DNA of 46,873 nucleotides from a virus: positions 1 to 46,873 of the IMG/VR virus record IMGVR_UViG_3300009154_000090; one strand, given 5' to 3'. Numbering within the stretch: position 1 is the first letter of the stretch; every line of letters begins with the position of its first letter. Positions 3,562 through 26,212 of the stretch are shown here, one piece after another. The translations under genes and the position numbers were made by a program. The notes beneath the pieces are model-generated. The model made no database searches and was not told the origin of the DNA. It saw only the letters and a program-made list of their open reading frames with translations.

Positions 3562-3579
3562 ATAAGTATTTTAACTTAT
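3562..3579. repeat. Inverted repeat over the start codon of the giant gene
   Basis: ATAAGT-ATTTTA-ACTTAT is a perfect inverted repeat with 6-bp arms and a 6-nt loop. Its right arm includes the first two bases of the ATG at 3578. In RNA it could form a weak hairpin that masks the start. All stem pairs but two are A-U, so the effect may be small. Confidence 0.35.
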
Positions 3580-6500
3580 GGCCATGACATCTAGTGTATC
3601 TTTAAATACACAAGCCCCTCTACCTTACAAAGACTGGATAGAGTATCAAGATGCATTAATACCAGAAAATGCTCAAGAAGCTTATTTAGAATATGTCCAA
3701 AGCTGGTATAAGAAACAACTTCAAGACAAAAAAATTGTAAAAGATAGTGTAAAGCAACAATTTATACAATTAGCTAAAGATCTTAGTTTCTTATTTGCAA
3801 ATGCTGAAACCCAAGACCCTTTCTTAAGAAATATAGATTATAATAGTGACGAAAATTTAATTTATGCAATTCCTTTCTTTGCTAAGAAATTAAGACAGAT
3901 AGCCACAGTTTTACAAAACAAAAGAGAAAACGTTAAGAGAGCAAAGTTAAAATATAATTTAGTAGGTTCCAATGAGGGTTTAGAAAAATTACTTTATGAA
4001 TATGTTTTAAGAGGATTTACCAATACAAAAAATTCTATTACCCAAGTACCAGCTTCACCTTTAATAAATTACTTCCCAGATCTTTCTGCTGTAAAAGACA
4101 ATTTCTTTATTGAATTAGAAGAATTACATGATACTCAATCATATTTTGATTCAGACCCTTCTGTTAATATAAATCAATATCTAGATATAAATTCTTTATC
4201 AAATACATTTCCTTTAGAAGGTTTAAATGAAGAAGAGATCAATACAATTATTTCTACAAAGCTTTTACCAAGAGTAGCTGATACACCTTTATCAAATATT
4301 TTTAAAGATTATGTTTTAAATACTCCATCATTATCAACAGTTTCTTTATCTTCCTTTGCTACTAATTTGGTTTATAATGAAATACATGCTTCGACCAAAT
4401 ACCTTGGAGAACCGGTTTATGGTTTAACTGCTGTAAGATTGGAAGATGTTAATATACCTGATGTTGTTTTAAATTTAAAATTTGAGCAAGGTAATAATTG
4501 GTTCTATTGGCCAAGCGGAAATAAAATATTAAATAATGATATTTTCAATAACAATTTAGATCCAGTATACATTAATAATTCTAATTTTGTTTCTTCAAGT
4601 GCCACTGGAGGAACCAATTATACCAATTCAGATTTAATTTTTACAGATAAAAACGGTATTGTCGAAGGAGCTTGGTTGCAAGGACCACACACAGAAAGAC
4701 AAGACTTGAATATAGTTGTTAATATAAATGGAGCTTCTACTAGAGATTTTATATTTCCTTTCCCTGGTATTAAAATATCTTCTAAAGAATTAACATTCCA
4801 AGGATATGCTATAGATGATACTATTAACGAAGGTATAGATAAACTTGCTACACAATCAAAAGTTAAATTGTTAAGTGATTATTATTCTTTTTCTTTGCCT
4901 AATACTTCTAGTAATTCAATTTACATCAATCAAACAACTTTAATAGATTCGGGAGCATATGCTTCAGAATTTTCTCCAGAAGCAGATAATATAATAAAGA
5001 AAACAAAACAAGAAGCTTCTTTACCTATTTATAGTGAAATTAATAACGGTGTAATAGATCAATCATATTTATTTAAATTCCAAAGAACAGATTTACCAAT
5101 CGCTTTAGGAGCTAATAATATTCACTGGCCTATACAAACCTTTGTTACCAGTTCTGATAATTTGCCTATTACAATTAAAGAAGATTGTTGTTTGCCAATT
5201 ATCTTAGGAAATATTAATCCAAGTTATGCTATGGTCGGAGCTGTGGCTGGATTTAATTTTTCTGATTCAGATGTAATATATAAATTAAATAACCGAGGTG
5301 GAGATCCAATGGAAGCTGCTTGGCTAGGAGCAGGATCAATAACAAATTTAGATGCTCTAAAAGGTGCTATACAAATATATGATACACCGGCTACAAAATG
5401 TGCTACTTATATAGATGGACCAGTTCAGAATTCTTGTTCTTTTAAAGTAAACGGATCAGATAAAGTTTCTTTTGTTTGGATGGATCCAGATACTCCAGCC
5501 GACGAGGTATTTAAGTATGTAGAGCATTTACCTAATTGTCAATATGGTAAAAATTATCCACACAATTATTATAAAGATCAAGATTATCAAAATGTAAATC
5601 CTATCAATAGTTTAGATTCTTGGACTAAATGTACTTGTAAGTCTGTACAATATTCTCCAATAGGTCATGAGGGAAATAATTTAAGAGATTATAATGGAAT
5701 GGCTGATTATCTTTTTGCTGATCCAGAGGGTTACGGAGTTGATTTTGCAACTAATACTTGGAAGGATACTAGAGGGTTGGACGTATATAATAGCCCTCAA
5801 TTTAGTTATTACAAAATAACTGGAGGAGATAAACAAGTAGGATGGGGCAAAGGTTATTGGAGGACGGGTACAGGAGCTTCTTTCATATTAAAAACCGGTA
5901 AGCGTTATACCTATTACAGATCCTCATTAAGAACTGATAAATCTAGTGGTAATGTTGCACCTTATTTTGTTTCTAATTATGCTTATAAAAATGTAAATGG
6001 TTTGTATTCTAGTTCTGAAGTTTATGATTTAGTTATAATGATAGACGTTAGTAAGTCTCAATCATATAGTTTAAGTAAAGTTAAAAATATAGTTACAACA
6101 ACTATAGATAAAATTTTAAATAACAATAAAAATCAAGTTCAAATATCTGTTATAGCTTTTGGTAGTGTAGCTTCTCGTTTGAGTTGGTTGACGAAAAATT
6201 TTAGTGCTTTAGAACTTTTTGTTGATCAATTACAAGTATCAAAAGATCCAGCAGTAAATCAAACAGATATATCAGACGCTTTATTATTAGCTCAAAATAT
6301 TTTAGATACTAGAGTCGTTACTAATGATACTAAAATTAATAATAGTAATGCTTATTTAGCTAGTCTCTGTAACAACCTTGGTTATTACATTTATCAACAA
6401 ACTCACAAATTAGGTACACCTCAAAACATTCCTCAAAACGGAAAAAAGAAAATATTAATATTCAGTGACGGAGAAGAAACACTTTACAGAAACAAGAGCC

Positions 6501-9500
6501 ATTTTGCTTTACGCCCATTTGATGATGCAGCATCAATAGCATTGGATTTAAAAAATGATAAAATAGAAATATATGGAGTCAATATAGGAGAACGTTCTTA
6601 TTTTGACGATACTGTAAAATCCATGTCATCCAACATGGCAGATTATTTTGATTTACAAAGATATCTAGTATCTGGAGATGGAGATGAAAATTCTTTTGCA
6701 GAATACATTTCTATGAAATTAGGTAATACAATTTCTGTTAGACCTACTTGGTACAAGGCTATAAGAGACGTTAATGGAAATTGGTCGGCTACTAATGAAT
6801 TATCAGATATGATAATAACTCCAGGAGATTATTTAACATATGTACACCGATCAGCTGTTAATTATACAGCTGCAATTATTAATGCATCTTTTATAACTCC
6901 TAGTATTTCATTTACCGTAAATGTAAAATTAGATGGTTGGGATTATGACAATAGTTATTTCACAGCATCGGCTTTAGGTGATCCCTATGGAGGCAAACCT
7001 TTCTGGGGTAAAGTATATACGTCACCAGATTCTAATTATAATTTCTTTAAAGGGGTCAATGCTTTTGGTGGTCATGTAAGATTCTTTAATGACTATACTC
7101 CTTTACATCAACCAGAAATTTCATCTTTAATTTTTAATACAGGAGATAACATACAATATGTAAGAAACAATAAAGATTCGCTTGTTTGGTCAGAGCCCTT
7201 AAACTTTGGTGTTTCTTTATCTTCTTATAATTGGAAACAATTGACTTTCAAAGAAGATTATTCCAACTTACAGGATTTCTTAAGATCAGGTAAATTAGAC
7301 GAGATTATAGAAGATACTAATTTACCAAGCTATCTAACATTAGAAAGTTATTCTTCTTTTAAACCAGCATATTACAATTATTATGCTAGAAACGGTTTTA
7401 ACTACACTCAAGATCTTTATTATTTAAATAGATGTTTAAAGAGCTTTGTGACCTATCACACTGGAGTAGCTATACAACCAAATGAACCATATGCTCATTT
7501 AGATAATGTTCACTACCCAACTGTAGCAACAGTTTCTTTTCCTTCTCAAGCAGTTAGTGATAAGCAAGTCGGGGAATATCTATTGCCAGAAAAATTAGGA
7601 ACTCCTTTTTATAGAGGAAAGGGTTATTCAATAAAATTAGATAATGAATCTTTAACATATATAGATTCAATAAGTGCTGAAAGAATGTTTTTAGATTTAG
7701 AAAAGTTTGGTCCTAGAAATAGAGGTCTAACTAAAAAGGATCAAATAAGTCCAACCAAGATTACAAATATAACTAATAAATGGATGATGGAACCTTATAG
7801 TTCTGCTTCTAAAGGTGGTGTTATTATTAATACTTTAGAAAATCAAAAGCTTACACCATATCAAACCAGTTATGAAGTATATGGTAAAAATCATTATGGG
7901 CTATCGAGACAAACGGATGTGTTTGAATTTTGGACACCAGCTATTCCAGGTACTTGGAATAATTCAAAAGAATATCCACTTACCTTCAGACAGGAATTAC
8001 CAGCTGAACAATATGCTTTAAGAAAAGAAAAATTACTAACAAATAAAGGAAAATTAGATAATTGGAGAACAGATATATACGGAAATGATTATGGTATATA
8101 TAAACCATTCTCTCCAGTAGACGTAGATGGTTTATATATGTGGTTCTCAGCTGATAGAGGAACTATTAATCAAATAGCTTCTAGCGGTCTTCTAGATGAT
8201 ATTCAAGCTGAACACGGATCTAATGTCTTAAAATGGATGGATCGTAGTGGTAAAAATAATAATCTTGTTGCTATAAGTGGAACACCTATTTTACAAATAG
8301 AAAATAATATCCATAGTATATACTTTAATTCTACCAGTAATTTTACTAATGCTTTTAATTTAAATTTTGCTACAGCTACTATGTTCATAATAGGTTCTTA
8401 TGAAAATATAGAAAATGATTATGCTTATAAAAATTATCAAGTAATGGCATCTTTCGGTCAATATGTGAGTGCCTTAGATCAAAATTATGTTACAAAAGGT
8501 TCTTTAGCCTTCGGACAAAGATATGGGGATTTTGTTTTTGACTTTGGTAACAATCAAGGATGGCCTACAAAAGTTGCTACTACAGAGTATCTATCATCAG
8601 TAGAAGAATTGCCTTATAATATGTGGGCTGTCCAATCTCTATATTGGTCTAGTACAGGTAATAATAGTTTTACAGTTCCCTCAAGAGTTACTTCCATTAC
8701 TGCTTTAGTAATCGGCGGAGGTGGAGCTGGTGGCGGTAGTAATACATCTGATGCTGGTGGTCAAGGAGGCGGTGGTGGTGGTATATCTTATACAGTAATA
8801 AATATTGCTCCAGGTTCTACAATTCCTCTTAAAGTAGGTAGTGGCGGTTTAGGACTGAGTGGAAGTGCTGGTAATCCTGGTGTAGCAAGTTATTTTGGTT
8901 CTTTAACAGCTTTTGGGGGGTCTGGTGGTGGTTTAGGTTCTGCTATCTTTAATGGAACTATGGTATTGGGTGGATCAGGTACTTTATCATATGGATCTTC
9001 TGGAGGTGCTTTTGGAACAATTGATTTTAATGCTTTAAACGGTGTAGATGGATATTACTTTTTATCAGAGAATACCTATTTTGGAGCTGGTGGTGGTGGT
9101 GGATCTCAATCTAATTCTTTGGGTGGCTTGGGTGGCTTGGGTGGTGGAGGAGATGGTTCTAATAAATCATATCTAAACGGGTTGAGTGGTGTAGGGTATG
9201 GTAGCGGTGGTGGTGGTGGTGGTCCGTTGTCTACAGTTAATACTTTTGGAGGAAATGGATCTAATGGTTATATTAAAATATTATGGCAACAACCTACTTC
9301 TGGTCTTACTCTAACTCCAGTGGCATCTACATATCCTACAACTTTATATGAAATTGAGTTGACAGACTATTATGGTTATGTGCCCGGATTCTATCCTCCA
9401 ACTTCAAGCCGTTATATGTTTGAAGCAGTCTTCAATCAACCTTATGCTCAAGCATTTATAAACGGTAAATTATACGCTGACAATAAAGGAACTTTAGTAA

Positions 9501-9691
9501 AAGCTGATACCGGATTAAATTTTGATGCTCCTTTATTTTCTACTGGTGGATTCTGGGTTGGTTGTTATGTACAAAATAGTCTATCAACACCTTGTAAAGT
9601 GTCTGAAATTCTTTTTTATAATAGAGCTCTCTCAACAGAAGAGAGACTAAATGTTGAGAAGTATCTCAACAACAAATATAATCTTTATTAA
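3578..9691 (+). CDS. Giant virion adhesin, 2037 aa: vWA domain and LamG domain interrupted by a Gly-rich domain
   Basis: Residues 1-150 are helical and charged, and include NLIYAIPFFAKKLRQIA and KRAKLKYNL, probably the virion-attachment part. A beta-rich Asn/Ser region follows. A von Willebrand A domain spans about 815-1030 with a complete MIDAS: DVSKS (823-827), Thr896 in QTDIS and Asp964 in FSDGEE, so it should bind a divalent metal and through it a protein ligand. From about 1510 a LamG/concanavalin-A-like domain begins (LYMWFSADRG; KWMDRSGKNNN). It is broken by a glycine-rich domain (about 1690-1902, VIGGGGAGGGS onward) and resumes to the end (AQAFINGKLYADN; EILFYNRALSTEERLNVEKY). There is no signal peptide or membrane segment. 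A baseplate- or fibre-borne receptor-binding protein is likely. Its 3' end overlaps the minus-strand gene at 9688 by 4 nt. Confidence 0.8.
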   Translation: MAMTSSVSLNTQAPLPYKDWIEYQDALIPENAQEAYLEYVQSWYKKQLQDKKIVKDSVKQQFIQLAKDLSFLFANAETQDPFLRNIDYNSDENLIYAIPFFAKKLRQIATVLQNKRENVKRAKLKYNLVGSNEGLEKLLYEYVLRGFTNTKNSITQVPASPLINYFPDLSAVKDNFFIELEELHDTQSYFDSDPSVNINQYLDINSLSNTFPLEGLNEEEINTIISTKLLPRVADTPLSNIFKDYVLNTPSLSTVSLSSFATNLVYNEIHASTKYLGEPVYGLTAVRLEDVNIPDVVLNLKFEQGNNWFYWPSGNKILNNDIFNNNLDPVYINNSNFVSSSATGGTNYTNSDLIFTDKNGIVEGAWLQGPHTERQDLNIVVNINGASTRDFIFPFPGIKISSKELTFQGYAIDDTINEGIDKLATQSKVKLLSDYYSFSLPNTSSNSIYINQTTLIDSGAYASEFSPEADNIIKKTKQEASLPIYSEINNGVIDQSYLFKFQRTDLPIALGANNIHWPIQTFVTSSDNLPITIKEDCCLPIILGNINPSYAMVGAVAGFNFSDSDVIYKLNNRGGDPMEAAWLGAGSITNLDALKGAIQIYDTPATKCATYIDGPVQNSCSFKVNGSDKVSFVWMDPDTPADEVFKYVEHLPNCQYGKNYPHNYYKDQDYQNVNPINSLDSWTKCTCKSVQYSPIGHEGNNLRDYNGMADYLFADPEGYGVDFATNTWKDTRGLDVYNSPQFSYYKITGGDKQVGWGKGYWRTGTGASFILKTGKRYTYYRSSLRTDKSSGNVAPYFVSNYAYKNVNGLYSSSEVYDLVIMIDVSKSQSYSLSKVKNIVTTTIDKILNNNKNQVQISVIAFGSVASRLSWLTKNFSALELFVDQLQVSKDPAVNQTDISDALLLAQNILDTRVVTNDTKINNSNAYLASLCNNLGYYIYQQTHKLGTPQNIPQNGKKKILIFSDGEETLYRNKSHFALRPFDDAASIALDLKNDKIEIYGVNIGERSYFDDTVKSMSSNMADYFDLQRYLVSGDGDENSFAEYISMKLGNTISVRPTWYKAIRDVNGNWSATNELSDMIITPGDYLTYVHRSAVNYTAAIINASFITPSISFTVNVKLDGWDYDNSYFTASALGDPYGGKPFWGKVYTSPDSNYNFFKGVNAFGGHVRFFNDYTPLHQPEISSLIFNTGDNIQYVRNNKDSLVWSEPLNFGVSLSSYNWKQLTFKEDYSNLQDFLRSGKLDEIIEDTNLPSYLTLESYSSFKPAYYNYYARNGFNYTQDLYYLNRCLKSFVTYHTGVAIQPNEPYAHLDNVHYPTVATVSFPSQAVSDKQVGEYLLPEKLGTPFYRGKGYSIKLDNESLTYIDSISAERMFLDLEKFGPRNRGLTKKDQISPTKITNITNKWMMEPYSSASKGGVIINTLENQKLTPYQTSYEVYGKNHYGLSRQTDVFEFWTPAIPGTWNNSKEYPLTFRQELPAEQYALRKEKLLTNKGKLDNWRTDIYGNDYGIYKPFSPVDVDGLYMWFSADRGTINQIASSGLLDDIQAEHGSNVLKWMDRSGKNNNLVAISGTPILQIENNIHSIYFNSTSNFTNAFNLNFATATMFIIGSYENIENDYAYKNYQVMASFGQYVSALDQNYVTKGSLAFGQRYGDFVFDFGNNQGWPTKVATTEYLSSVEELPYNMWAVQSLYWSSTGNNSFTVPSRVTSITALVIGGGGAGGGSNTSDAGGQGGGGGGISYTVINIAPGSTIPLKVGSGGLGLSGSAGNPGVASYFGSLTAFGGSGGGLGSAIFNGTMVLGGSGTLSYGSSGGAFGTIDFNALNGVDGYYFLSENTYFGAGGGGGSQSNSLGGLGGLGGGGDGSNKSYLNGLSGVGYGSGGGGGGPLSTVNTFGGNGSNGYIKILWQQPTSGLTLTPVASTYPTTLYEIELTDYYGYVPGFYPPTSSRYMFEAVFNQPYAQAFINGKLYADNKGTLVKADTGLNFDAPLFSTGGFWVGCYVQNSLSTPCKVSEILFYNRALSTEERLNVEKYLNNKYNLY

Positions 9692-10149
9692 AGATTAACT
9701 AAAGAAAGAAGATAATTTGCTTTATTAAAAGCAGAAAGAATATCTTCCTTGGTATTATTGATACCAGACTTTACAGTGGTTACATAATTATTGAACTCTA
9801 AAGAAGTTAATAGGTTTTGTGTAAATTCATTTATCTTTTTATAATTAGATAAAATATCCTCTGCATCTCCCTTGTATTGATTTATGTCTTCTAAATTTAT
9901 ATTTGAATTAATACTAGGAAATAATGAATTTTGAATTCTTGATGTACCAATTATTTCTTCTTGGAGTTTGTCAAATAAACCATCTAGAGTCTCATAAAGA
10001 TCTCCGAGAATTTCATGAACATTAATATCTGCTGCATACCAATGTAATAGGTGAATGGAAGAATGAATCTTCTTTAATGTAACTCCGAATTGTCTCGTTG
10101 GATCAAGAGACACACCTTCTGATTTTATTTTAATAATTTCTACTTCCAT
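9688..10149 (-). CDS. Ferritin-like four-helix protein (Dps/DUF5856-like), 153 aa
   Basis: The N-terminal half reads FGVTLKKIHSSIHLLHW then a loop and VHEILGDLYETLDGLFDKLQ. His36-Trp37, His45-Glu46, Asp60 and Glu64 line up with the Dps ferroxidase pattern (HW ... HE ... D-x3-E), with the H45-D60-E64 spacing identical to E. coli Dps (15 and 4 residues) and a shorter loop between the histidines. The C-terminal end (EDILSAFNKANYLLSL) is also like the phage/large-virus family DUF5856, which I consider the closest. At 153 aa it is a normal length for a four-helix protein. A diiron or metal-binding role is therefore possible but unproven. It ends the long minus-strand virion unit, 1 nt after the 136-aa gene, and converges with the giant gene. 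Confidence 0.6.
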   Translation of the reverse strand: MEVEIIKIKSEGVSLDPTRQFGVTLKKIHSSIHLLHWYAADINVHEILGDLYETLDGLFDKLQEEIIGTSRIQNSLFPSINSNINLEDINQYKGDAEDILSNYKKINEFTQNLLTSLEFNNYVTTVKSGINNTKEDILSAFNKANYLLSLVNL

Positions 10150-10566: not shown

Positions 10567-10923
10567 TTATTTATTATATTTTGATAAAATATCTAGTACG
10601 TCTGTACTCATTTCTTTAAAATCATTATTAAAAAGATTGGCATTTTTAGATATTAAATGCAATTGTCTTATAATATTAGTTATTTGAATACCTAGAGGAT
10701 ACTTTTCTATTATTTCTTTAAGCGCCTTAGCTTCATTGTCCAATTCGATTATTTTCCTATTAGATACCATTTTACCATTATCAAAATCTCCTTCCCAATG
10801 CCACTCTTTTAGGTTTGAAAATTCTAGAGGTATTTCTTTGAGATATCCTTGAAAACTATTATCTTCTAAAATATTAGGAGCATATCCTATTAATTGTTTA
10901 TTTTTATTAAAAAGAGCTAACAT
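10567..10923 (-). CDS. Hypothetical protein, 118 aa (possible fibre-assembly protein)
   Basis: It begins MLALFNKNKQLIGYAPNI and contains KEWHWEGDFDNGKMVSNRKI. The pattern 'short strand-turn with NKxxxxIGYAP, then W-x-GD(F/Y)-x-(N/T)G-x-(M/F)VS' resembles small phage proteins that lie downstream of fibre genes and act as assembly factors. The second half is helical (EAKALKEIIEKYPLG; STDVLDILSKYN). The stop codon abuts the next gene (10924) with no gap, so expression with the paralogous fibre-like genes is likely. The chaperone idea is inference from context and a weak motif. Confidence 0.5.
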   Translation of the reverse strand: MLALFNKNKQLIGYAPNILEDNSFQGYLKEIPLEFSNLKEWHWEGDFDNGKMVSNRKIIELDNEAKALKEIIEKYPLGIQITNIIRQLHLISKNANLFNNDFKEMSTDVLDILSKYNK

Positions 10924-12486
10924 TTAATTACTAATTGTTGCGCCGGTATAAATCCAGGTATTATTTTGCTGAATATATTTTAAAGTATAAACTTTTGCTA
11001 CTTGCATTTCTTGGTGAGTAAAATCAACTAATATAGTTCTATAATAAGATGAACCAGCTGCATAAGAAGCTGGAGCTGGAGCTGTTGTTGTTGCATTTGA
11101 TGCAATTGTAACAGAAGTTGCTGTATACACGGCATATGAGATAACAAGCAAACCGGAATAACCATTACCAATAACTCCTCCGGTTGTACGCACATCATCA
11201 GATCCACCTCCACCAGCTCCGTAGAAAAATCCACTTACATTATGATCTCCACCACCACCTAGACCGCCTCTGCCTGATATACGTCCACCACCACCACCAG
11301 AATATTGAGTTCCGTCATATATAGGTCCTGCTGCTCCGTCTCGTTGATCTCCACCTCCTACACCACCAGTCGCATAGTTTCCAGTACCAGGTATACCTCC
11401 TCCGCCATTTGCTGATCCAGTACCAGCTTGACCTCCATAAGCTATTATATTACCAAATGTAGTATTGCCACCAGCTCCGGTTGCCCCAGAACTTGATATA
11501 GAACCAATACCACCAGCTCCTACGGTATAATTTATTACGCTACCAGGTGTCACGTCAACTTTGCCAGAAGAAATACCACCACCACCACCACCACCAGCAT
11601 ATCCACCATTTGCATTATAAGATCCTCCAGATCCACCACCTCCAACCGCAAAAACCGTTACAGATGAAACACCAGCTGGAACTGTCCAAGATCCAGATGA
11701 AGTAAATGTTTCACTCAAATAACGAATATTATAAGAAGGTGAAGTAGGAGACGCTGCGGCTGTGCGTATGTTTGCGTTATTCGTTATATAAGTGGAACCA
11801 GAAGGAGTCAATATTGAAATACTATTATTATCACCACCAAGAGGATTTGGGGAAGAAGTATATGTATAATGAACTGTATAATCGTCTATACGGGCATCAG
11901 CTAAAATATTAGAAGCATTTGCTCCGGACCCTACGTTTAAACTGGTGGAAGGTTCTGTTGGTATATAACAAATAGAAGAATTATTATTTGTAGATTTATC
12001 TAGTAATACATTGTATATAAAAACAACAACATTAACCATAGAACCGATATTATAATTGGTTGGTGGGAAATTCGTATTTAAATAATTTAAAGAATTAGTT
12101 TGTATAGTATCTATAGTTGTACTGAGGGTGTAGGCATTGACTATAGAACCATCACTAGCATTATTAAAACTGTCTGAGTTATAATTGTTATGTTCATATT
12201 GAACTGTAAAATCTGAAGTATGCCAATATGAACTTAATGTACTAATAGACGTGTGATTTATATTATATTTTTCCACAGCATCGTTAGAAAAATCTAATGC
12301 CATTTTATTATAAATCGTAGAATTGGCGGATATATCATTAAACCAAGTCAAGATGTTATTTTTTTTATAAATATCTGAAGATAAATTACATACGGTTGTA
12401 TCGAGAGATAATAAATTGTAATTATGTTTGGCTATAGAATCACCAACACATTCTTCTCTTTTAATTTCTAAGGTTAATGTTCTCAT
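10924..12486 (-). CDS. Virion protein, 520 aa: paralog family scaffold with a Gly-rich insert
   Basis: This is one of three adjacent related genes (with 12483 and 13292). Shared features are an N-terminal 'GDS-x4-N-x-N-x2-LDT' motif (VGDSIAKHNYNLLSLDT), a helical/aromatic stretch, a 'LN-x-NFP' motif (YLNTNFPPTNYNIGSMVNVV) and a beta-rich end (KYIQQNNTWIYTG). Between them, residues about 260-455 form a glycine-rich domain that starts SGSWTVPAGVSSVTVFAVGG and ends GYSGLLVISYAVY; it resembles the modules in the 2037-aa and 715-aa proteins. I chose the ATG at 12486 because it overlaps the upstream stop as ATGA; the ATG at 12507 would overlap by 25 nt. The likely role is a short fibre or decoration protein. 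Confidence 0.7.
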   Translation of the reverse strand: MRTLTLEIKREECVGDSIAKHNYNLLSLDTTVCNLSSDIYKKNNILTWFNDISANSTIYNKMALDFSNDAVEKYNINHTSISTLSSYWHTSDFTVQYEHNNYNSDSFNNASDGSIVNAYTLSTTIDTIQTNSLNYLNTNFPPTNYNIGSMVNVVVFIYNVLLDKSTNNNSSICYIPTEPSTSLNVGSGANASNILADARIDDYTVHYTYTSSPNPLGGDNNSISILTPSGSTYITNNANIRTAAASPTSPSYNIRYLSETFTSSGSWTVPAGVSSVTVFAVGGGGSGGSYNANGGYAGGGGGGGISSGKVDVTPGSVINYTVGAGGIGSISSSGATGAGGNTTFGNIIAYGGQAGTGSANGGGGIPGTGNYATGGVGGGDQRDGAAGPIYDGTQYSGGGGGRISGRGGLGGGGDHNVSGFFYGAGGGGSDDVRTTGGVIGNGYSGLLVISYAVYTATSVTIASNATTTAPAPASYAAGSSYYRTILVDFTHQEMQVAKVYTLKYIQQNNTWIYTGATISN

Positions 12487-13292
12487 ATTTGTGTGCTGTA
12501 TATCCATTTACAGTTTTGCATTATATACACTAAACAAGATATATTAGATGATTCATAATTATTAGAATAATTAAAATTTAAATAAGCTCTAATAACTGGA
12601 TTATAATAGTGAGTACCGGTTTGAGGGTAACTACATGGGCAGGTAGCCGATTGATTACATCCATTAGATTGTCCATTGCAATTAAAGTCTCCATTACTGC
12701 AATATACATAACCACTATAGTGATTAGTACAATATGTTGTAATAGTTACATCATTAGTAGAACAAGCTCCGGTATCTTGTAATAATCTTACAGTTGATAT
12801 GGGCGTAGATGATTCTTGTTTTAAAGCATAAACATAAGCTATTTGATTTTCTATATATGCTGTTGATCCGCCAAGACCGGAATTTGCTGAAAAATTATCA
12901 TTAAGCCATTTGGTTATTTTTTTTTCTGTTGTAGGTGCTACAGTAGCTTGTTCTATGGATCGAGACGTTACAAATCCTTCTACAGCTAAATCTGTACCAG
13001 TTAATACTACTGGATAAAAAACTACTACAGGTTCTAACCATTTAGCACTATTAATTTGAACTTGAGTCACACAATTATCCCAAGAAGGTTTCCACAATGT
13101 ACCAATTGCTGCAGCATTTTTAAATAAAATACTTTTAACTTGATAGTATTCAACAAGAGGTTTCCAAAGATTTTGAGCACTTAATTGTACCGATCCAATC
13201 CAAGTATCCAAAGTTTCGTAATTCAAATTTACTGTTGATAAAGAATCTCCTATGGAATAAGAAGTTGGTATATTGAAAAATGTGTAGCTCAT
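12483..13292 (-). CDS. Virion protein, 269 aa: paralog family scaffold with a Cys-rich insert
   Basis: This is the second member of the three-gene family. It has SIGDSLSTVNLNYETLDTW near residues 14-32, repeated aromatic segments (SAQNLWKPLVEYYQ; GTLWKPSWDN; SAKWLEPVV), KWLNDNFSANSG followed by IENQIAYVYALK, and the end LVYIMQNCKWIYS. The insert at about 178-222 has seven cysteines in 45 residues with Asn, Gly and Ser between them (CSTNDVTITTYC; CNGQSNGCNQSATCPC), a small disulfide or metal-bound domain by appearance. The gene overlaps its upstream neighbour by 1 nt and its downstream one by 4 nt, so the three are co-translated. Confidence 0.7.
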   Translation of the reverse strand: MSYTFFNIPTSYSIGDSLSTVNLNYETLDTWIGSVQLSAQNLWKPLVEYYQVKSILFKNAAAIGTLWKPSWDNCVTQVQINSAKWLEPVVVFYPVVLTGTDLAVEGFVTSRSIEQATVAPTTEKKITKWLNDNFSANSGLGGSTAYIENQIAYVYALKQESSTPISTVRLLQDTGACSTNDVTITTYCTNHYSGYVYCSNGDFNCNGQSNGCNQSATCPCSYPQTGTHYYNPVIRAYLNFNYSNNYESSNISCLVYIMQNCKWIYSTQI

Positions 13293-14110
13293 TATATTTT
13301 ACTCCAAGACGAAGATCGATTATTATACTTGTATCTTACTCTTACAGATTTTGCACAGAATCTATCCGTGACATAATAATTATAAGAAGATCCATCAGAT
13401 GGTATTTTTAAAGTTTTGCCACCATAACCTGGGCAAGTACAAGTAACATTAGCTCCTCCAGTTACAGTAACACTACATCCATCATAAGCATTGGTACAAC
13501 CACCTTTACCAGCTTTACCTCCGTGGTGGTTGCATCCTCTGCTAGGTCTTCCACATTGACCATTACAAGTTACTGTGCCTCCACCATTCGGTACGTGGCA
13601 GTCATGAGTATATGAAGCTTTAAATCCACTTGCTAAATCAAATTGATAATTTTCGTAAAGATTTACATAAACAGAAACAATTTGATTGACTGTAAAATTT
13701 GATACGGGAAAATTAACATTTAACCAATTAAGGATGTTGTTTGTTGAATATGTTACATTATTAGTTTTCCAGTCTTGAATTTCAAATAACGTATTGTAGT
13801 ATAGAGCAAATTCATTAGCCCAAGTACCACTTAAAGATGTTACAGTTTTAAAATCTTGGATCCAAGTAGCAGAAGTATAAGCCACATTATTACTTGCTTC
13901 TATCCAAGCTGCACTATTATTAGAAAAAAGAGTATAGACTTTATTTAAATAATTTGATGTGGTTTGAATATAGTTTATAGAAGTACTAAGATTGACTACG
14001 TTGGTATTAATAACTTTTAAAGAATTAGACAGACACAAATTTTCATCTAACAAAAATATGTTAGAACACGTCTGGTCTATTTTAGTAAAAAGTGTGTCGA
14101 GGTCTGCCAT
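13292..14110 (-). CDS. Virion protein, 272 aa: paralog family scaffold with a Cys/His-rich insert
   Basis: This is the first of the three paralogs in transcription order. The N-terminal half is Asn/Ser/Thr-rich with W-containing repeats (SAAWIEASNNVAYTSATWIQ; TSLSGTWANEF), as in shaft-like phage fibres. It shares ILNWLNVNFPVSNF and VNQIVSVYVNLYEN with its neighbours and ends in a basic strand (RVRYKYNNRSSSWSKI). Residues about 169-225 carry eight cysteines and several His and Gly (CNGQCGRPSRGCNHHGGKAG and onward). The insert is unlike that of the 269-aa paralog in spacing, so the cassette looks exchanged rather than diverged. Confidence 0.7.
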   Translation of the reverse strand: MADLDTLFTKIDQTCSNIFLLDENLCLSNSLKVINTNVVNLSTSINYIQTTSNYLNKVYTLFSNNSAAWIEASNNVAYTSATWIQDFKTVTSLSGTWANEFALYYNTLFEIQDWKTNNVTYSTNNILNWLNVNFPVSNFTVNQIVSVYVNLYENYQFDLASGFKASYTHDCHVPNGGGTVTCNGQCGRPSRGCNHHGGKAGKGGCTNAYDGCSVTVTGGANVTCTCPGYGGKTLKIPSDGSSYNYYVTDRFCAKSVRVRYKYNNRSSSWSKI

Positions 14111-14111
14111 A

Positions 14112-17100
14112 TTATTTCCAATTAATTTTGTATAAAGAAGTATTAGTAGGTGCTATTTTATTTAAATTGTTCTTGATGCCATTTTCTATTATTTGTTTAA
14201 CTTGATCTGGAACATTTAAATTATGTATATTAATGTTATAATATTTACTTTTACTGCCAGGTAATTGCATTTTATACCAGTGTTTGATTTGTTCTATATA
14301 ACTTCTCTCACCTACAGACATATTCCACAATAGAGACCTATCATCTGCGGCGTGTTTAGATGAAAAATATAATTGTTCTATTTCTCCTTGAGTTAAAGAC
14401 TTATTATAAAGTCTTAATTCTGCAACTTGTCCAGTAAATTTGTAACCATTATCTATGGCTATAATATCATTTAAAGTTGTATTTTGTATAGTTTCACAAC
14501 CTAATAATAAAGATGTTCTGTATATATAATATAATTGGTAAACGTGTGGAGAGAATGTAACAGTATCGCCTTGTTGAACAGAATCTAAATAAGCTTTGAT
14601 TGTTCCATTGACACCATCAAATGCCAAAGTAAAATGATGCCACCCAGGACTTAAATTATTAATGTCATAAGGTAATATTTTTATATTAACAGAAGGGCTT
14701 GGGTTTTTACCGTTAGGTGTAGCTAATTTAAGTTTCCAACTTAATTGTTTATTAATACTAGCATATTTTCTAAGATATTGATATCCTGTAAAATCTCCAA
14801 AAGAAAACATATTAACATTTAAATTATTAGTTAATCCTACAAGATTTAATTTAGTTATAATATTCCCGCTACTGTTGATAGTGTATATATTGTCATCATT
14901 CAGGTCTACCAATATGAGTCGATCTTCAGTTGATACCAAAGTCGTATTACAAGGATCTGAATTACTATCTTTAGGCACTCTTACAAAATTCATAAATCTT
15001 GTTTGTTTTGTATAATCAAAACAAGGATCAGGAGGTAATGTAGAATATTTTCCTAATCTTTTTGAAAATATTATTTGATTATTTAAAACGTTTATTTTAG
15101 TCAAACTATCTTGTCCGTGTAATACCCAAATATAATTGTCTGCATCAAAACTTATTTGCTGCACATAACCTATATTTCCAAATATTGCTTTATTCCTATA
15201 AAGATTACCACCAATTATTTCCCATATATTGTTTTGGTTATCTACAGCAGATTGTAAACCGAAACAAGATATTATGTTTCCATTTAAATCTATTTGAATA
15301 GAATTAACATCTTTGGATAAAGAACCGTTAGATTTGTAATTACCGTTTGTGTCTAAAACTACATAATTTTTTGTAACATTATCAAATATATATAAGTTTT
15401 CGTATTTGTCTGTTTCTATTTGAGATATAGAACTTAATGAATTAACTAAATGAGTTTTAGCATTTAATATATTATTAGTTTGAAATAGTGGTTGATTGTT
15501 AATATCATATTTAATTCCAGCCAAACCTTTTGTATCAAAAACCCAATAGGTATAATCTATCAACCTTTGAACTATTTTATTGCCCTTAGAAAAAGATATA
15601 TTTTGGGCAGTTAAATTTTCTAAATTTGAAAATCTATAATTTAGATTGTATATTTTATTTTTGTAATTGGAAGTATCATTACTATCTACTAAGGTAATAA
15701 TTGGGGTTGTTAAAGATCCTTCATTTATAAGACCAAATCCACTATCATAATAATTACCAAATATTTGTTTTCCAGACATATTCTGCCAGTCTTCTGTATT
15801 CAACCACATAGAAACAGTTAATTGGTTTTGGGATAACAATTCTGTAGTGGCTGGAAAAAGAACGTGATTAGTTCCATCTAAATTTAAACTATCACCTAAT
15901 AAATTAGATTCTTTATTAAAATATAATATACCTTCACCTTGATTAGGTGACTCATCCATTAAAGGAGAAGAATCCCATTTAGTTACTTGTAAAATAGAAT
16001 TAGAAGAAAGATGTTGAATATAATTTAATCTATTTTCTTTTCCTGTATGAAAATAACGATATAAAACTCCAGGTTCTAAATACATTTGCGACGGCATATC
16101 AAATGTATAATTTTCTGTCGTATTTAATCTATCGTGATATACCATCAATTTAGTAGATAGAGCTTGATCAATTGTGTAGTATGCTGGGTTATAATATCTA
16201 TCCATCCATACTTTATTCCCATCCATACTACCAGATAACCAAGAACATAACCAAGTATTACTATAGCGAGTAATAGAAGGAGGCTGAGGGGAGTCTGGTA
16301 TTTTTTCAGAATAATCTTGAAGCTTGATATAAATTCTATCAGAAGCAAATGGAGTCTCACCTGGAATAGCACCATCTTCAATAAGACCGGAAGAACTTAA
16401 AGGTATTCTTTTTGATGTAGGGCCAAAATAAAATGGACTATCTTTATCAGGCGGAAAATCCATTTCAATAGTGTCTGAAGTAAAACCTAGATAAACATTA
16501 TCTAATCCTTTATCTTGGTTAGTTCCGGAATACACGTTTTCATATTTTCTTCTGATTCCTTTTTGACCCTGAACGTATTCTAGACCAAAGCTATAATTGT
16601 ATTCTGGTGTTTGATAATTTTTAAGACCATGTAGAGCTAACGGATAAGTTACTCCTTGTGTTGTTTGTATATAATACTCTGGAGGAAATATTCCTAAATA
16701 ATTTTGAGAGTATTGAGAGTTTATAGTACTTAAATCTAAAGTTAATGTATTTTGATTATTTAAAGGATTAACTTTATATTTTACTAAAAAGCTATCTTTA
16801 ACATCACTATTGAGAGATGGTTTTTCTTTGTATGAAATAAAATTAAGAGATGCTTCTTTTGGAAATTTATAGGCAGATGTAAGATAAGCTAAAGAACTTA
16901 ATCCATAAAAATTATTACTAAATTTTACAACAGCTTGTTCAAAACGAGGTAATAATAAATCATCATTAATTCTAAATAAACTAATAGTGTCTGGTCCTAA
17001 TGCATAATCAAATCTTTGAGCATCTATATAGAAATTTTTAGCACTTAAAATAGGTGTAATTACTGGGTGAAATATAAGACCATTAAATCCTTCAAAAAGA

Positions 17101-17576
17101 CTTGTAAGAAGATATTTGGTTTTTACAGATTCTACTATTACAGAATTATCTGGTTGAAATACAAATCTAAATACATCATTTTGATTAAAAGAAGAAACAC
17201 CAGTTACAGCCCATTGATAATTGTCTTGTACTTTTATTAACGTTAATAATTCTAAATTATGATCTGCTACTGGACTTTTAATTAAACTTTGACCAATAAC
17301 CGGACTATCTATTTCTGTTAACAGACCAGTATCTTTTGGTTTTAAATCATCTGTTAAAAATTCGGAAGCCTTTTTAGTATCGGTTAGAAATAATCCGGTT
17401 TTGTTATTAGTTGTAAAACTAATACAATTACTAAGAAATTCATCAACATTAGCTCTTAATCCATTACTAAAAATAATTGGAGTAGGGCTTGTTGTAAATT
17501 GGTTGCCTAAAATAGAAAATTTTACAGGGTTACAATTAACTGTAGATAAATTTGTATATAGATTTACACTTACCAT
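14112..17576 (-). CDS. Virion adhesin, 1154 aa: LamG domain interrupted by an NHL-like propeller
   Basis: The first ~550 residues are a beta-rich Asn/Ser/Thr region. A LamG/concanavalin-A fold begins near 560 (SLNLDGTNHVLFPATTELLS; LTVSMWLNTEDW). It is interrupted at about 650-910 by a segment with recurring 'D-x-x-x-N-(I/L)-(W/Y)-x-(I/V)' strands (DKYENLYIFDN; DADNYIWVLHGQDSLTKIN), typical of NHL or streptogramin-lyase-like propellers. The LamG half returns at about 965-1070 (LSPGWHHFTLAFDGVNGTIK; VAELRLYNKSLTQGEIEQLY). The last 85 residues are a separate charged tail (IEQIKHWYKMQLPG). The start is the ATG at 17576; a TTG two codons upstream is unlikely. A TAAATATT motif lies 4 nt before that ATG. 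It is probably a carbohydrate-binding baseplate or fibre protein. Confidence 0.75.
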   Translation of the reverse strand: MVSVNLYTNLSTVNCNPVKFSILGNQFTTSPTPIIFSNGLRANVDEFLSNCISFTTNNKTGLFLTDTKKASEFLTDDLKPKDTGLLTEIDSPVIGQSLIKSPVADHNLELLTLIKVQDNYQWAVTGVSSFNQNDVFRFVFQPDNSVIVESVKTKYLLTSLFEGFNGLIFHPVITPILSAKNFYIDAQRFDYALGPDTISLFRINDDLLLPRFEQAVVKFSNNFYGLSSLAYLTSAYKFPKEASLNFISYKEKPSLNSDVKDSFLVKYKVNPLNNQNTLTLDLSTINSQYSQNYLGIFPPEYYIQTTQGVTYPLALHGLKNYQTPEYNYSFGLEYVQGQKGIRRKYENVYSGTNQDKGLDNVYLGFTSDTIEMDFPPDKDSPFYFGPTSKRIPLSSSGLIEDGAIPGETPFASDRIYIKLQDYSEKIPDSPQPPSITRYSNTWLCSWLSGSMDGNKVWMDRYYNPAYYTIDQALSTKLMVYHDRLNTTENYTFDMPSQMYLEPGVLYRYFHTGKENRLNYIQHLSSNSILQVTKWDSSPLMDESPNQGEGILYFNKESNLLGDSLNLDGTNHVLFPATTELLSQNQLTVSMWLNTEDWQNMSGKQIFGNYYDSGFGLINEGSLTTPIITLVDSNDTSNYKNKIYNLNYRFSNLENLTAQNISFSKGNKIVQRLIDYTYWVFDTKGLAGIKYDINNQPLFQTNNILNAKTHLVNSLSSISQIETDKYENLYIFDNVTKNYVVLDTNGNYKSNGSLSKDVNSIQIDLNGNIISCFGLQSAVDNQNNIWEIIGGNLYRNKAIFGNIGYVQQISFDADNYIWVLHGQDSLTKINVLNNQIIFSKRLGKYSTLPPDPCFDYTKQTRFMNFVRVPKDSNSDPCNTTLVSTEDRLILVDLNDDNIYTINSSGNIITKLNLVGLTNNLNVNMFSFGDFTGYQYLRKYASINKQLSWKLKLATPNGKNPSPSVNIKILPYDINNLSPGWHHFTLAFDGVNGTIKAYLDSVQQGDTVTFSPHVYQLYYIYRTSLLLGCETIQNTTLNDIIAIDNGYKFTGQVAELRLYNKSLTQGEIEQLYFSSKHAADDRSLLWNMSVGERSYIEQIKHWYKMQLPGSKSKYYNINIHNLNVPDQVKQIIENGIKNNLNKIAPTNTSLYKINWK

Positions 17577-17580
17577 TATC

Positions 17581-17588
17581 AATATTTA
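17581..17588 (-). promoter_or_regulatory. T4-late-like promoter motif TAAATATT
   Basis: On the minus strand TAAATATT ends 4 nt upstream of the ATG at 17576, in the gap after the 237-aa gene. It is the same motif type as at 1830 and 32320. Confidence 0.35.
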
Positions 17589-21402: not shown

Positions 21403-22719
21403 TTAAGCGCTTCCGTTTACAAGTCTATTATACAAGTCTATACAATTAACAAAACAAGCTGGATTACCTAGGTCTCTGGAATTTGTTAATGTTGGTAAAT
21501 TCTGATCAGAAACAATACAATTAATATATTGGCCTTTGTAGTTGCTTAAATAACCGCTTATAGCATATCCATCAGAAACAGAGCTAGATCCTTTACAAGC
21601 ATTTAAATAAGCATTATTACTAGTTTGATATCCAAAGAAACCTCCACCCCAAGTAGCAGTATTGGAACCAGTGCAATTATAAAAAGTTCCAGCAATAGAA
21701 ATTGATAATTTACCAACAAATCCACCACCAGCTAATCCATAATTAAACCCCTGACAATTATAAAAAATACTATCAGACACTCCACCATTAATTCCAACAA
21801 ATCCGCCACCTCCACTACCACTGTTGCTCCCAGAACAATTAGTAAAGACTGCATTTTGTATAATGGAATTATCACCACCAAATCCACCTCCACCATTATC
21901 ACAAGAATTTGACCCCGAACAATTAGTAAATGTTCCAGATAAAGTAGAACCACTTCCAGCAAATCCACCTCCACTATTACTACCAGAACTTATGCCTTTG
22001 CAATTGGTAAATGTTCCAGATAAAATTGCACTACTTCCAGCAAATCCACCAGCTCCTCCATTATTTCCTATGTTTGATCCAGAACAATTAATAAAAGTTC
22101 CAATTAAATTACCACCAAAAGACCCTTGACCATTTTTTGAATTAGTTCCAGAGCAATTAACAAATGTTCCAGAAACATTAAAAGAATATAACATATCAAA
22201 AATTATATTTTCCCAGTATAAGTTAGTAAAATTACTTCCAACAATAGCACTTATTCCAGAACCATTATTTTTGATTGTGAATCCTATACAACGAATATCA
22301 TTAGCAGATTGATTTATAGTTTGGTCACTATTATTAGAAATAATATTAACATGACTAGCATCCCTAGAGAATCCTACTACATCTACATATTGAGTATCTA
22401 AATTTAAAGAGAAAGAACCGAGGTCATAAGTCCCAGGCATTAATATTAATGTTGCTCTATTAGAAGAACTTAAAGGTAATCCATTTGGAGATAATGTTTT
22501 GGCTTTTGTATAAGCTTTAAGAAGATTAGTCCCATTTGTTATTACATTATCACTAGTTGTTACATATACAAAGTTGGGTGTTGTAGTAGCTATACTTGTA
22601 GTATTGAGAGCATCTATTAAAGAGATTTTTTTTGTTATACCGTCATTAACAACTGGAAACACATCATCTGCTGTAGGAGATGTAAGTGTTGGTAAATCTA
22701 TAATAGTTGTATTAGCCAT
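21403..22719 (-). CDS. Beta-helix tailspike-like protein A, 438 aa
   Basis: Residues 1-40 are the shared anchor (TTIIDLPTLTSPTADDVFPV; NDGITKKISLIDAL). Then comes a pectate-lyase-like start (LILMPGTYDLGS; DTQYVDVVGFSRDASHV) and from about 180 to 410 a solenoid of about eight coils of 22-27 residues with the pattern 'G-T-F-x-NC-x-G-x-(N/S) ... GGGF-x-G'. Each coil places Asn-Cys at the same point, giving a predicted ladder. The end (LVNGSA) is shared with the paralogs. Such right-handed beta-helices are used by phages to bind or cleave surface glycans, but no Asp/Glu catalytic pair can be assigned. It lies 9 nt after the 715-aa paralog. Confidence 0.75.
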   Translation of the reverse strand: MANTTIIDLPTLTSPTADDVFPVVNDGITKKISLIDALNTTSIATTTPNFVYVTTSDNVITNGTNLLKAYTKAKTLSPNGLPLSSSNRATLILMPGTYDLGSFSLNLDTQYVDVVGFSRDASHVNIISNNSDQTINQSANDIRCIGFTIKNNGSGISAIVGSNFTNLYWENIIFDMLYSFNVSGTFVNCSGTNSKNGQGSFGGNLIGTFINCSGSNIGNNGGAGGFAGSSAILSGTFTNCKGISSGSNSGGGFAGSGSTLSGTFTNCSGSNSCDNGGGGFGGDNSIIQNAVFTNCSGSNSGSGGGGFVGINGGVSDSIFYNCQGFNYGLAGGGFVGKLSISIAGTFYNCTGSNTATWGGGFFGYQTSNNAYLNACKGSSSVSDGYAISGYLSNYKGQYINCIVSDQNLPTLTNSRDLGNPACFVNCIDLYNRLVNGSA

Positions 22720-22723
22720 ATGT

Positions 22724-22731
22724 TATATTTA
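22724..22731 (-). promoter_or_regulatory. T4-late-like promoter motif TAAATATA
   Basis: On the minus strand TAAATATA, which includes the TAA stop of the 715-aa gene, ends 4 nt before the ATG at 22719. It is the same motif as at 2151 and 28259. Confidence 0.3.
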
Positions 22732-24876
22732 AGCGTAATAAGTTCCTGAATTTAAAAATTCTAATATTGTATTAGATCCAACTACAGTTACTCTTGGAGA
22801 ACCAGTTGTGATTCCGCTATAATAGTCCGTAGGTATAGAAAGTACAACAGCTCCGGATCCACCTGACCCACCAATAGTGGCGGAGTAATTTCCTGCTCCA
22901 CCACCACCACCACCACCTGAATTTGGAACGCCATCTTTTCCTACACTAGCATTAGTTGCTTTTCCATATCCACCAGAACCACCGCCACCAATCCCCCCAG
23001 TACCTGCGGCAGCTGCTACCCCGTTTCCAAGATTGTCAGTAAAATTAGTACCACCACCGCCGCCACCGCCAATCCAATAAGCTCCATTTACTAATACACC
23101 TACTTTAGAACCTAAAATTGGATTTACTATACCAGCACCACCAGTACCACCAGGACCGCCACCATTGGCGTCTCCTCCAGCAGCACCAGCACCTCCTCCT
23201 CCTCCTCCAGGACTGTAAATAATATTACCAGATGATCCTCCATCATTACCTTGTCGCGATGCAACAACACTATTTCCACCAGGATAAATAAGGCCTTGAG
23301 CATCAGCAATAATACCACCACCTGCTCCACCACCACTACCCTTACTTGCTAGATCAGCGGATGAAGAATTACTGTTTCTGGTTGGTCCTCCGGTACCTCC
23401 GCCATATGCTACTAAATTGCCAAAAGATGAGTTTTGTCCTAGGGTGCCTTTACCTTGATAAGAAGAAGCACCTTGAATAAAAACACCACCGGCACCACCG
23501 GCACCAATTGTTGCACCATAGCTTGTCCCATAATTTAATGTAGTAGTTCCACTTATAACTCCACCGGCTCCGCCTCCTCCTGAAGAACCTCCGCCACCTC
23601 CTCCGCCTATTAATAGGTAACTAATAGTATAAGGAGATGTATTGCTTCCATTAACAATATTACCCGAACCATCTAAACAATTAATATAAAAACCATTAAC
23701 CAAAGATGGAAAAGAAGAATATGTAGTTTTATGATTTATAAAACGACCTTTTACGGTGTTACCTATACTACCAGTACAATTAAAAAATGTTCCAGAAATT
23801 GAAGAACTATATCCACCCCAATCACTAGATGCATCGTAAGAGTTAGATGCTATACAATTATAACAATTGCTATTTAATGTACCATATAGTCCAATAAAAC
23901 CACCGCCTTGAGCTCCGTTATTAGAACCTTTACAATTATAAAAAGTTCCCGAAATTATTCCATACCATCCGGCAAATCCACCGCCATAAGTTGCTGAGTC
24001 GTTATTTGAACCAGTGCAATCTATAAATGTACCAGAAGATGTACTGGAGCTTCCTGCAAACCCTCCACCATAATTTGCTGTATTTATTCCAGTGCAATTA
24101 ATAAATGTACCATTACAACTTCCACTAGATCCGGCAAATCCACCTCCTTTAAAACCAGTATCAGTATTAGAGCCAGTGCAATTAGTAAATAAACCAGATA
24201 TGATACCACCATTACGCGTAAAACCTCCAGATAATCCGATGGAATTTATACCAATACAGTCTGTAAAAATTCCAGAAGCTATACCAATATCCCAATTATT
24301 ACTTGTACAATTTTTAAATGTACCTGATAAAATATCTGAAGATATAGAATTAAAAATTATATTTTCATAATATGCTAAATTTAAATTACTATTTAAAATA
24401 ACCCCTGTACCGTTTGTAAGTGCTGTATTATTTGTTGAGAATCCAACACAACGAACATCATTAGCAGTTTGATTTATAGTTCTAGATGAATTAGAAGATG
24501 TTATAATAGTACCTTTAGGATCTCTAGTAAATCCTACTATGTCTATATATTGTGTATCTAAATTTAAAGAAGAGGATCCTAAATCATAATTAGCTGGTGG
24601 AAGAATAATTACAAATCGATTAGAAGAACTTAAAGGTAAACCATTAGGAGTTTGAGTTTTGGCTGTTGCATAAGCATTTAAAAGTTTAGTTCCATTAGAT
24701 ATATTATTATTGGAAATTACTAATAAATTATAATTTGTTTTACTACCGAATGCGGAAATACTAAAAGCGTCTGATAAAGAAATCTTTTTGGTTACATTAT
24801 TATTAACAATAGGTAATATATCTGCAGGAGATGGTATTGAATTTAAAGTTAAATTAGATATTTTTGTATCTGCCAT
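22729..24876 (-). CDS. Beta-helix tailspike-like protein B with C-terminal Gly-rich domain, 715 aa
   Basis: This is a paralog of the 438- and 426-aa proteins: anchor (ISNLTLNSIPSPADILPIVN; VTKKISLSDAF), pectate-lyase-like strand region (DTQYIDIVGFTRD), then from about 175 to 420 eight coils with 'F-x-NC' (TNCTG, INCTG, IDCTG, YNCKG, FNCTG). Where the paralogs stop at VNGSA this one reads VNGSN and continues into a glycine-rich domain (about 422-680, beginning YTISYLLIGGGGGGG and ending AVVLSIPTD) with short glycine runs and Asn/Ser turns. It ends in a short strand tail. The added domain resembles those at 8697-9285 and 11131-11710. It probably forms a trimeric spike with an extra binding or stalk module. 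Confidence 0.75.
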   Translation of the reverse strand: MADTKISNLTLNSIPSPADILPIVNNNVTKKISLSDAFSISAFGSKTNYNLLVISNNNISNGTKLLNAYATAKTQTPNGLPLSSSNRFVIILPPANYDLGSSSLNLDTQYIDIVGFTRDPKGTIITSSNSSRTINQTANDVRCVGFSTNNTALTNGTGVILNSNLNLAYYENIIFNSISSDILSGTFKNCTSNNWDIGIASGIFTDCIGINSIGLSGGFTRNGGIISGLFTNCTGSNTDTGFKGGGFAGSSGSCNGTFINCTGINTANYGGGFAGSSSTSSGTFIDCTGSNNDSATYGGGFAGWYGIISGTFYNCKGSNNGAQGGGFIGLYGTLNSNCYNCIASNSYDASSDWGGYSSSISGTFFNCTGSIGNTVKGRFINHKTTYSSFPSLVNGFYINCLDGSGNIVNGSNTSPYTISYLLIGGGGGGGSSGGGGAGGVISGTTTLNYGTSYGATIGAGGAGGVFIQGASSYQGKGTLGQNSSFGNLVAYGGGTGGPTRNSNSSSADLASKGSGGGAGGGIIADAQGLIYPGGNSVVASRQGNDGGSSGNIIYSPGGGGGGAGAAGGDANGGGPGGTGGAGIVNPILGSKVGVLVNGAYWIGGGGGGGTNFTDNLGNGVAAAAGTGGIGGGGSGGYGKATNASVGKDGVPNSGGGGGGGAGNYSATIGGSGGSGAVVLSIPTDYYSGITTGSPRVTVVGSNTILEFLNSGTYYA

Positions 24877-24887
24877 AAATCTACTTA

Positions 24888-25040
24888 TTAAGCACTCCCA
24901 TTAACTAGTTTGCCGGAATTATCTAAACAATTTATATAACAAGCTGGTTTGGTTGAATCTCCGGAATTCGTAAGAGTTGGAAAATTTGTGTCATATAATA
25001 ATTTACAATTAATAAAACGCCCTTTATGATTGAAGTATAA
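24888..25040 (-). other. Displaced C-terminus of beta-helix protein C (-1 frame)
   Basis: Translated on the minus strand in the -1 frame, the segment reads NHKGRFINCKLLYDTNFPTL then TNSGD ... CYINCLDNSGKLVNGSA and stops at TAA (24888-24890). This matches the C-termini of the 438-aa protein (NYKGQYINC ... LVNGSA) and the 715-aa protein (VKGRFIN ... YINCLDGSGNIVNGS). It is therefore the original end of the gene at 24932-26212. No slippery heptamer (X XXY YYZ) is present at the junction. Confidence 0.75.
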
Positions 25041-26212
25041 CCACCAATACCACCTCCTCCTGATGTCTCATCAATCCCTAAACTATTGGTAAAAGTTCCA
25101 CTAGCCGAGCCACTTGCTCCTACAAATCCACCACCAGCATAACCAGTATTTTTTCCTATACAATTAGTAAATGTTCCAGAAGCAATACCAGCAGTGCCAA
25201 CGAATCCACCACCATTACCTCCAGTATTTGTACCAGTACAATTTATAAATGTACCAGAAGCATAGCCATAACGACCAGCAAATCCCCCACCGAAGTTGTT
25301 TGCTTCACTTTTTCCGATACAATTAATAAATATTCCAGAAGCGTAACCGCCATAACCTGTAAATCCCCCAGCACCAAGATTACTTCCAGTGTGGAATCCT
25401 TTACAATTAGTAAATGTTCCTGAAGCATCTCCAGCATTGCCAACAAATCCACCACCATTACCTCCAGTATTAGAGCCTGTGCAATTAATAAAAATTCCAG
25501 GAGCGGTGCCACTTATTCCTGCAAACCCACCGCTCAATAGTTGAGAATTTATTCCATTACAATTTATAAATTTACCAGCAGCAGATCCGCCATATGCACA
25601 ATAAGCACCATTTGGATAATTAAGAGTTGTAGATGTACAATTTTTAAATGTGCCAGATAAAACACCAGCATAAATAGAACCGAAAATTATATTTTCACAG
25701 TAAGCTAAATTTAAATTACTAGAAAATGCATAAGCTTCAAACGCACTAGTATTTTTAACTGTAAACCCTATACAACGGACGTCATTAGCAGTTTGGTTTA
25801 TGGTTTGACCTATGGATGCTGATGTTATAATAACATGACTAGCTTCTTTGGTTAATCCAATCAAATCTATATACTCTGTATCGAGAGTAAGAAAAGAAGT
25901 TCCTAAATCATATTTGCCCGGTGGGACAATAATAGAAACTCTATTTGTAGAACTTAATGAAGATCCATTAGGAGTTAAAGTCTTGGCTGAAGTATATGCC
26001 GCTATAAGATTATTCCCGTTAGTAACCGCATTGTTGGTAATTGGTACATAAACATAATTTGCTGCTTGTAAAGGTAAACTACTTAAGGACGCAACGGCAT
26101 TGGCAATTGTAACTTTGGTAGTAGATCCATCACTAACTTTTATAACTGGTAATATGTCAGAAGAAGATGGATTTGTATTGTATGGTAAATTTATTATTCT
26201 TAATTCTGCCAT
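24932..26212 (-). CDS. Beta-helix tailspike-like protein C with a C-terminal frameshift, 426 aa as read
   Basis: Anchor (RIINLPYNTNPSSSDILPVI; TTKVTIANAV), pectate-lyase-like region (PPGKYDLGTSFLTLDTEYID) and about eight 'F-x-NC-x-G ... GGGF-x-G' coils, as in the two paralogs. After GGGGIGGYTS the frame changes: the sequence as read ends in a non-homologous tail (IIKGVLLIVNYYMTQIFQ and onward), while the paralog-like end (NHKGRFINC ... LVNGSA) is present in the -1 frame and stops at 24888. One missing base near 25030-25040 explains it. The gap to the next gene would be 11 nt with the restored frame but is 55 nt as read. A sequencing or assembly error and a real mutation are both possible. Confidence 0.7.
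   Translation of the reverse strand: MAELRIINLPYNTNPSSSDILPVIKVSDGSTTKVTIANAVASLSSLPLQAANYVYVPITNNAVTNGNNLIAAYTSAKTLTPNGSSLSSTNRVSIIVPPGKYDLGTSFLTLDTEYIDLIGLTKEASHVIITSASIGQTINQTANDVRCIGFTVKNTSAFEAYAFSSNLNLAYCENIIFGSIYAGVLSGTFKNCTSTTLNYPNGAYCAYGGSAAGKFINCNGINSQLLSGGFAGISGTAPGIFINCTGSNTGGNGGGFVGNAGDASGTFTNCKGFHTGSNLGAGGFTGYGGYASGIFINCIGKSEANNFGGGFAGRYGYASGTFINCTGTNTGGNGGGFVGTAGIASGTFTNCIGKNTGYAGGGFVGASGSASGTFTNSLGIDETSGGGGIGGYTSIIKGVLLIVNYYMTQIFQLLRIPEIQPNQLVI

Follow-up and report, generated by a model that had tools for sequence, protein, structure and literature searches.

The window analysed here is the whole 46,873-nt stretch of the IMG/VR virus record IMGVR_UViG_3300009154_000090, a contig from an uncultured phage. 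Between positions 10924 and 14110 its minus strand carries three genes, which are transcribed in the order C, B, A. Gene C (13292..14110, minus strand, 272 aa, with orthologs in 32 phages) encodes a stalk-and-head protein with a fixed Cys/His-rich module, gene B (12483..13292, minus strand, 269 aa, orthologs likewise found) one with a fixed Cys module, and gene A (10924..12486, minus strand, 520 aa) one with a variable adhesin slot. A preliminary description of this DNA had reported three ORFs of these sizes and two gene overlaps, and we confirm both: C and B overlap as TAATG, while B and A overlap as ATGA, where the stop codon of B meets the ATG of A at 12486. The longest ORF for A (10924-12507) would encode 527 aa, but the closest orthologs begin at the position equivalent to the ATG at 12486, which gives 520 aa. 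The number of promoter-like sites in 10924-14110 is at the level expected by chance.

Single-sequence BLAST detects the relation between the three proteins only weakly (3e-5 for A and C, 0.002 for A and B, 0.07 for B and C). With orthologs included, full-protein profile-profile scores reach 180.5 for C and B (18.4 as the best of 40 column shuffles), 105 for A and C (shuffle maximum 19.8) and 58 for A and B (shuffle maximum 22.1). The preliminary description had noticed a shared scaffold and named a profile comparison as a test that could refute it; all three pairs are significant, with scores far above the column-shuffled controls, and C, B and A are true paralogs from one ancestor. The common scaffold takes in the C-terminal ends, a match absent from the preliminary description, for which the scores are 22.4 for A and C, 16.6 for C and B and 15.4 for A and B (shuffle maxima 11.3, 13.2 and 12.7, respectively), and the N-terminal motif of C is a degenerate version, SNSLKVINTNVVNLST. 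When 87 stalk regions are placed on a tree, all B sequences group on one branch and all A sequences on another, both with 100% support, and C makes up the remainder; the duplications therefore predate every phage on that tree. Within the genomes searched, no paralogs occur outside the C-B-A cassette apart from weak matches, which fall in Ser/Trp-repeat proteins.

The stalk of C is a long helix with heptad periodicity (aa 27-98, 13817..14032) and the C-terminal strands of its head lie at aa 246-272 (13295..13375). The stalk of B covers aa 15-86 (13035..13250) and the C-terminal segment of its head aa 232-269 (12486..12599); in A, the N-terminal motif and stalk occupy 12223..12444 (aa 22-95 of the 527-aa ORF) and the C-terminal segment of the head, 3' of the insert, 10927..11055, all on the minus strand. 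Stalk length, counted between a conserved Asn and the Trp that precedes the first strand, is 62 in C (N35 to W97, 31 of 32 phages), 63 in B (N22 to W85, 27 of 31 phages) and mostly about 65 in A, with a range of 60-71. Hydrophobicity has a period of 3.5-3.6 residues in C and B, above shuffles, and the heptad signal of A does not exceed shuffle level (16.9 vs 18.3). The AlphaFold model of C from the window is weak overall (pLDDT 55) with the head at 80-87, and that of an insert-free A from the relative L021 (212 aa) has a pLDDT of 75, rising to 95 in the head. The order of elements is the same in both models, namely helical stalk, strand, helix, strand, insert loop and C-terminal strands, and so is the topology of the small alpha/beta head. 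In these models the inserts singled out in the preliminary description map to one shared loop of this head, outside the common fold.

In C this loop holds a Cys/His module (aa 163-235, 13406..13624, minus strand), which is a low-confidence region of the AlphaFold model, and in B a Cys module (aa 175-222, 12627..12770, minus strand). The preliminary description had correctly counted eight cysteines in the insert of C (aa 171-226) and seven in that of B (aa 177-220). Across 32 phages, seven module cysteines of C (C171, C182, C186, C193, C205, C212 and C226) and two more near its N-terminus are 91-100% conserved, as are seven cysteines of B, of which C177, C188, C198, C205, C212 and C220 are in the module and C261 is in the last segment. 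These near-invariant cysteines, together with the separate, 100%-supported branches of B and A, rule out that the Cys modules have been swapped between paralogs, as had been proposed; they are fixed features, each tied to its own paralog. A C-x-N-x4-C motif is present in both modules of the window, and in a comparison of the two for homology the profile score (13.5) was below the shuffle maximum (14.4). Rare exceptions to the fixed layouts are a B with a 180-aa N-terminal extension (L012:6377-7795) and a C with a large insert within the Cys region (L027:7989-9872).

The head loop of A in the window instead carries a Gly_rich_2 module (PF21722; 11122..11724, minus strand) with 69 Gly in 201 aa. 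It matches the Pfam family at 5.7e-11 (43.3 bits, curated cut-off 24.3) and, in a composition-biased match, the Pam3 tail fiber (7YFW/7YPX; 3e-4, score 23, bias 59.5), while a search of the same protein for the GP38 adhesin domain (PF05268) gave no match. In L067, the nearest relative at 40-47% identity, the insert is missing but its flanks are kept. Among the phages compared, A has no added domain in 9 phages, a C-terminal GP38-type domain in 12, Gly_rich_2 in 5 and other domains in 4. GP38 scores above the Pfam cut-off in A of L004, L018, L032, L039, L048, L076 and L077 and in B of L051 (7e-22), and is assigned by similarity to other members rather than by that cut-off in L008, L012, L051, L056 and L070. 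Gly_rich_2 is matched in A of the window, L050 and L054, and in L075 is assigned from its first residues, at the contig end; in L027, A is divided between a pair of ORFs that have TPTP linkers, and Gly_rich_2 and the C-terminal segment belong to the second ORF. The module lies in the head loop in the window and at the C-terminus in other phages. Mapped on the phage tree, the slot of A has changed at least nine times, with five changes for Gly_rich_2 alone, and the scattered states fit gain as well as loss. The preliminary description saw a gene family that evolves by changing its module, and this holds for A but not for the fixed modules of B and C: among the paralogs only the slot of A changes often, with rare cases in B of L051 and C of L027. 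It had also suggested a survey of related phages at the insert site, and there we find no insert, Gly_rich_2, a helical insert (second clade, see below) or a large insert (C of L027).

A also matches phrog_863, named 'tail fiber assembly', at 1e-30, and C, B and A could on that account be non-structural assembly factors, that is, tail fiber chaperones. Most of the stretch that matches is the Gly-rich module, however, and no chaperone family matches the scaffold, so that we consider this very improbable.

The C-B-A cassette, with one copy of each gene in the same order, was found by scans of viral contigs in about 33 further divergent phages, all of them environmental contigs; where it is incomplete, the missing gene coincides with the contig end. 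In relatives it is usually flanked by a LamG protein on one side and up to three small genes on the other. In the window these are a 1156-aa protein with a LamG domain (14112..17582, minus strand), which in most relatives immediately precedes C, and a 118-aa protein (10567..10923, minus strand), which in most of them immediately follows A. Neither has named relatives in 50,697 deposited phage records, and the scaffold has no relatives there at all. The scaffold likewise has no match in PHROGs, Pfam or the PDB and no significant fold match in PDB and BFVD searches, one scan of bacterial and archaeal genomes with A as query gave no match, and we found no published description of the cassette. 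From its place and layout the 118-aa gene was considered as a fiber chaperone, and this was rejected since it matches no known chaperone family or structure. A 153-aa protein conserved near the cassette (9688-10149) has weak similarity to DUF5856 and to a 'starvation-inducible' PHROG.

Proteins that decorate the head (capsid) and bear adhesive modules there could also have conserved genes of virion type whose outer domains vary. The cluster, however, holds a gp6-like baseplate wedge protein along with the LamG protein and large fiber-like proteins, and GP38 is an adhesin of the tail-fiber tip, which makes a capsid location for C, B and A unlikely. Of the earlier suggestion of an undescribed type of decoration or fiber system, it stands that the family is undescribed, and the GP38 modules make an adhesin role likely, whereas the terms 'decoration' and 'outward module' are interpretive.

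On balance, we favor, with moderate confidence, the view that C, B and A form a cassette of tail adhesin proteins, probably attached to the baseplate, of which A is the variable member. This is the best reading because GP38 and the Gly-rich domain of Pam3 are known receptor-binding modules. That the scaffold has no homolog of known place or function counts against it. Each chain would begin at its N-terminus with an anchor motif, continue as a helical stalk of near-constant length, most likely a coiled coil, and end in the small head. In C and B the module in the head loop, which probably owes its fold to bound metal or disulfides, would stabilise or cap the head. In A the head would serve as an adhesin slot, filled in the window by a Pam3-type Gly-rich receptor-binding domain and in other phages by a C-terminal GP38 adhesin, by another domain or by nothing. 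Since 9 phages carry A without an added domain, A must have some further role.

In certain long tail fibers GP38 forms the tip that binds the receptor, and a link between modules of this kind and receptor recognition comes from the structures of S16 and PP01 gp38 (PMC6851490, PMC12892980) and of the Pam3 fiber (PMC9608196). It is from this, from the match to the Gly-rich part of Pam3 and from the 227-kb record L048, in which the sole GP38 match is located in A, that we regard A as the probable adhesin carrier. In S16 and PP01, gp38 exists as a protein of its own, on the tip of gp37, whereas in many of the relatives the same domain is fused to the new scaffold, on A or, in L051, on B; A of the window has Gly_rich_2 in its place. 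The Pam3 fiber protein gp24 is trimeric, with the Gly-rich region as its proposed receptor-binding part (PMC9608196). Like A, it starts with a helical shaft at the N-terminus, and its receptor-binding region, which comes next, has the same type of Gly-rich module, but the match is confined to that module, a PDB search with the scaffold profile gave no hit to the shaft, its TNF-like domain is not seen in the scaffold of A, and it is one fiber protein without Cys-module paralogs.

A refinement of the tail adhesin reading, which would replace separate homotrimers, is that C, B and A together form one heterotrimeric tail spike with a shared coiled-coil stalk and an own head for each chain, two of them fixed Cys heads and one an exchangeable adhesin. 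The single-copy, overlapping genes in constant order and the near-equal stalk lengths (62, 63 and about 65), which have stayed constant despite great divergence, are what such a spike would lead us to expect. Yet in a second clade (L092-L106) only B-like and C-like genes are present, a search there for A finding none; the stalk of A ranges from 60 to 71; and Pam3 gp24, the one well-matched fiber, is a homotrimer (PMC9608196). We therefore hold the heterotrimer to be possible but rather doubtful; if the chains do co-assemble, such a fiber would be unusual. The C-like protein of the second clade has a long insert, which occupies the site where the other paralogs have theirs.

T4 gp10, gp11 and gp12 are baseplate and short-fiber proteins, and resemble C, B and A, as probable tail proteins, in being neighbors within a T4-like cluster, but no sequence or fold match to them was found. 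The comparison of C, B and A provides a record of a probable tail protein family that a broad group of uncultured phages has conserved, although databases of cultured phages, PHROGs, Pfam and the PDB all lack it. It also shows a division of labor after duplication, in which two paralogs were frozen around fixed cysteines and the third became a docking point for adhesins, with two types of Gly-rich adhesin docked at two positions.

A second tandem trio of paralogs in the window (21403-26212; 438, 715 and 426 aa) has N-termini that are 45-52% identical and 'SGTFINCTGSN..GGGF' repeats, and a Gly-rich region ends the 715-aa member. The 426-aa member appears to be frameshifted near its end (24932-25010), as the C-terminal sequence common to the paralogs runs on in another frame. 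On the strand opposite to the cassette, a 2037-aa protein (3578-9691) combines a VWA domain with a Gly_rich_2 domain related to the module of A. Finally, a fiber-like protein at 26344-28254 has 14-residue Ser/Ala-x-Trp repeats, encoded by 42-bp tandem repeats, which resemble the repeats in the stalks of B and C.
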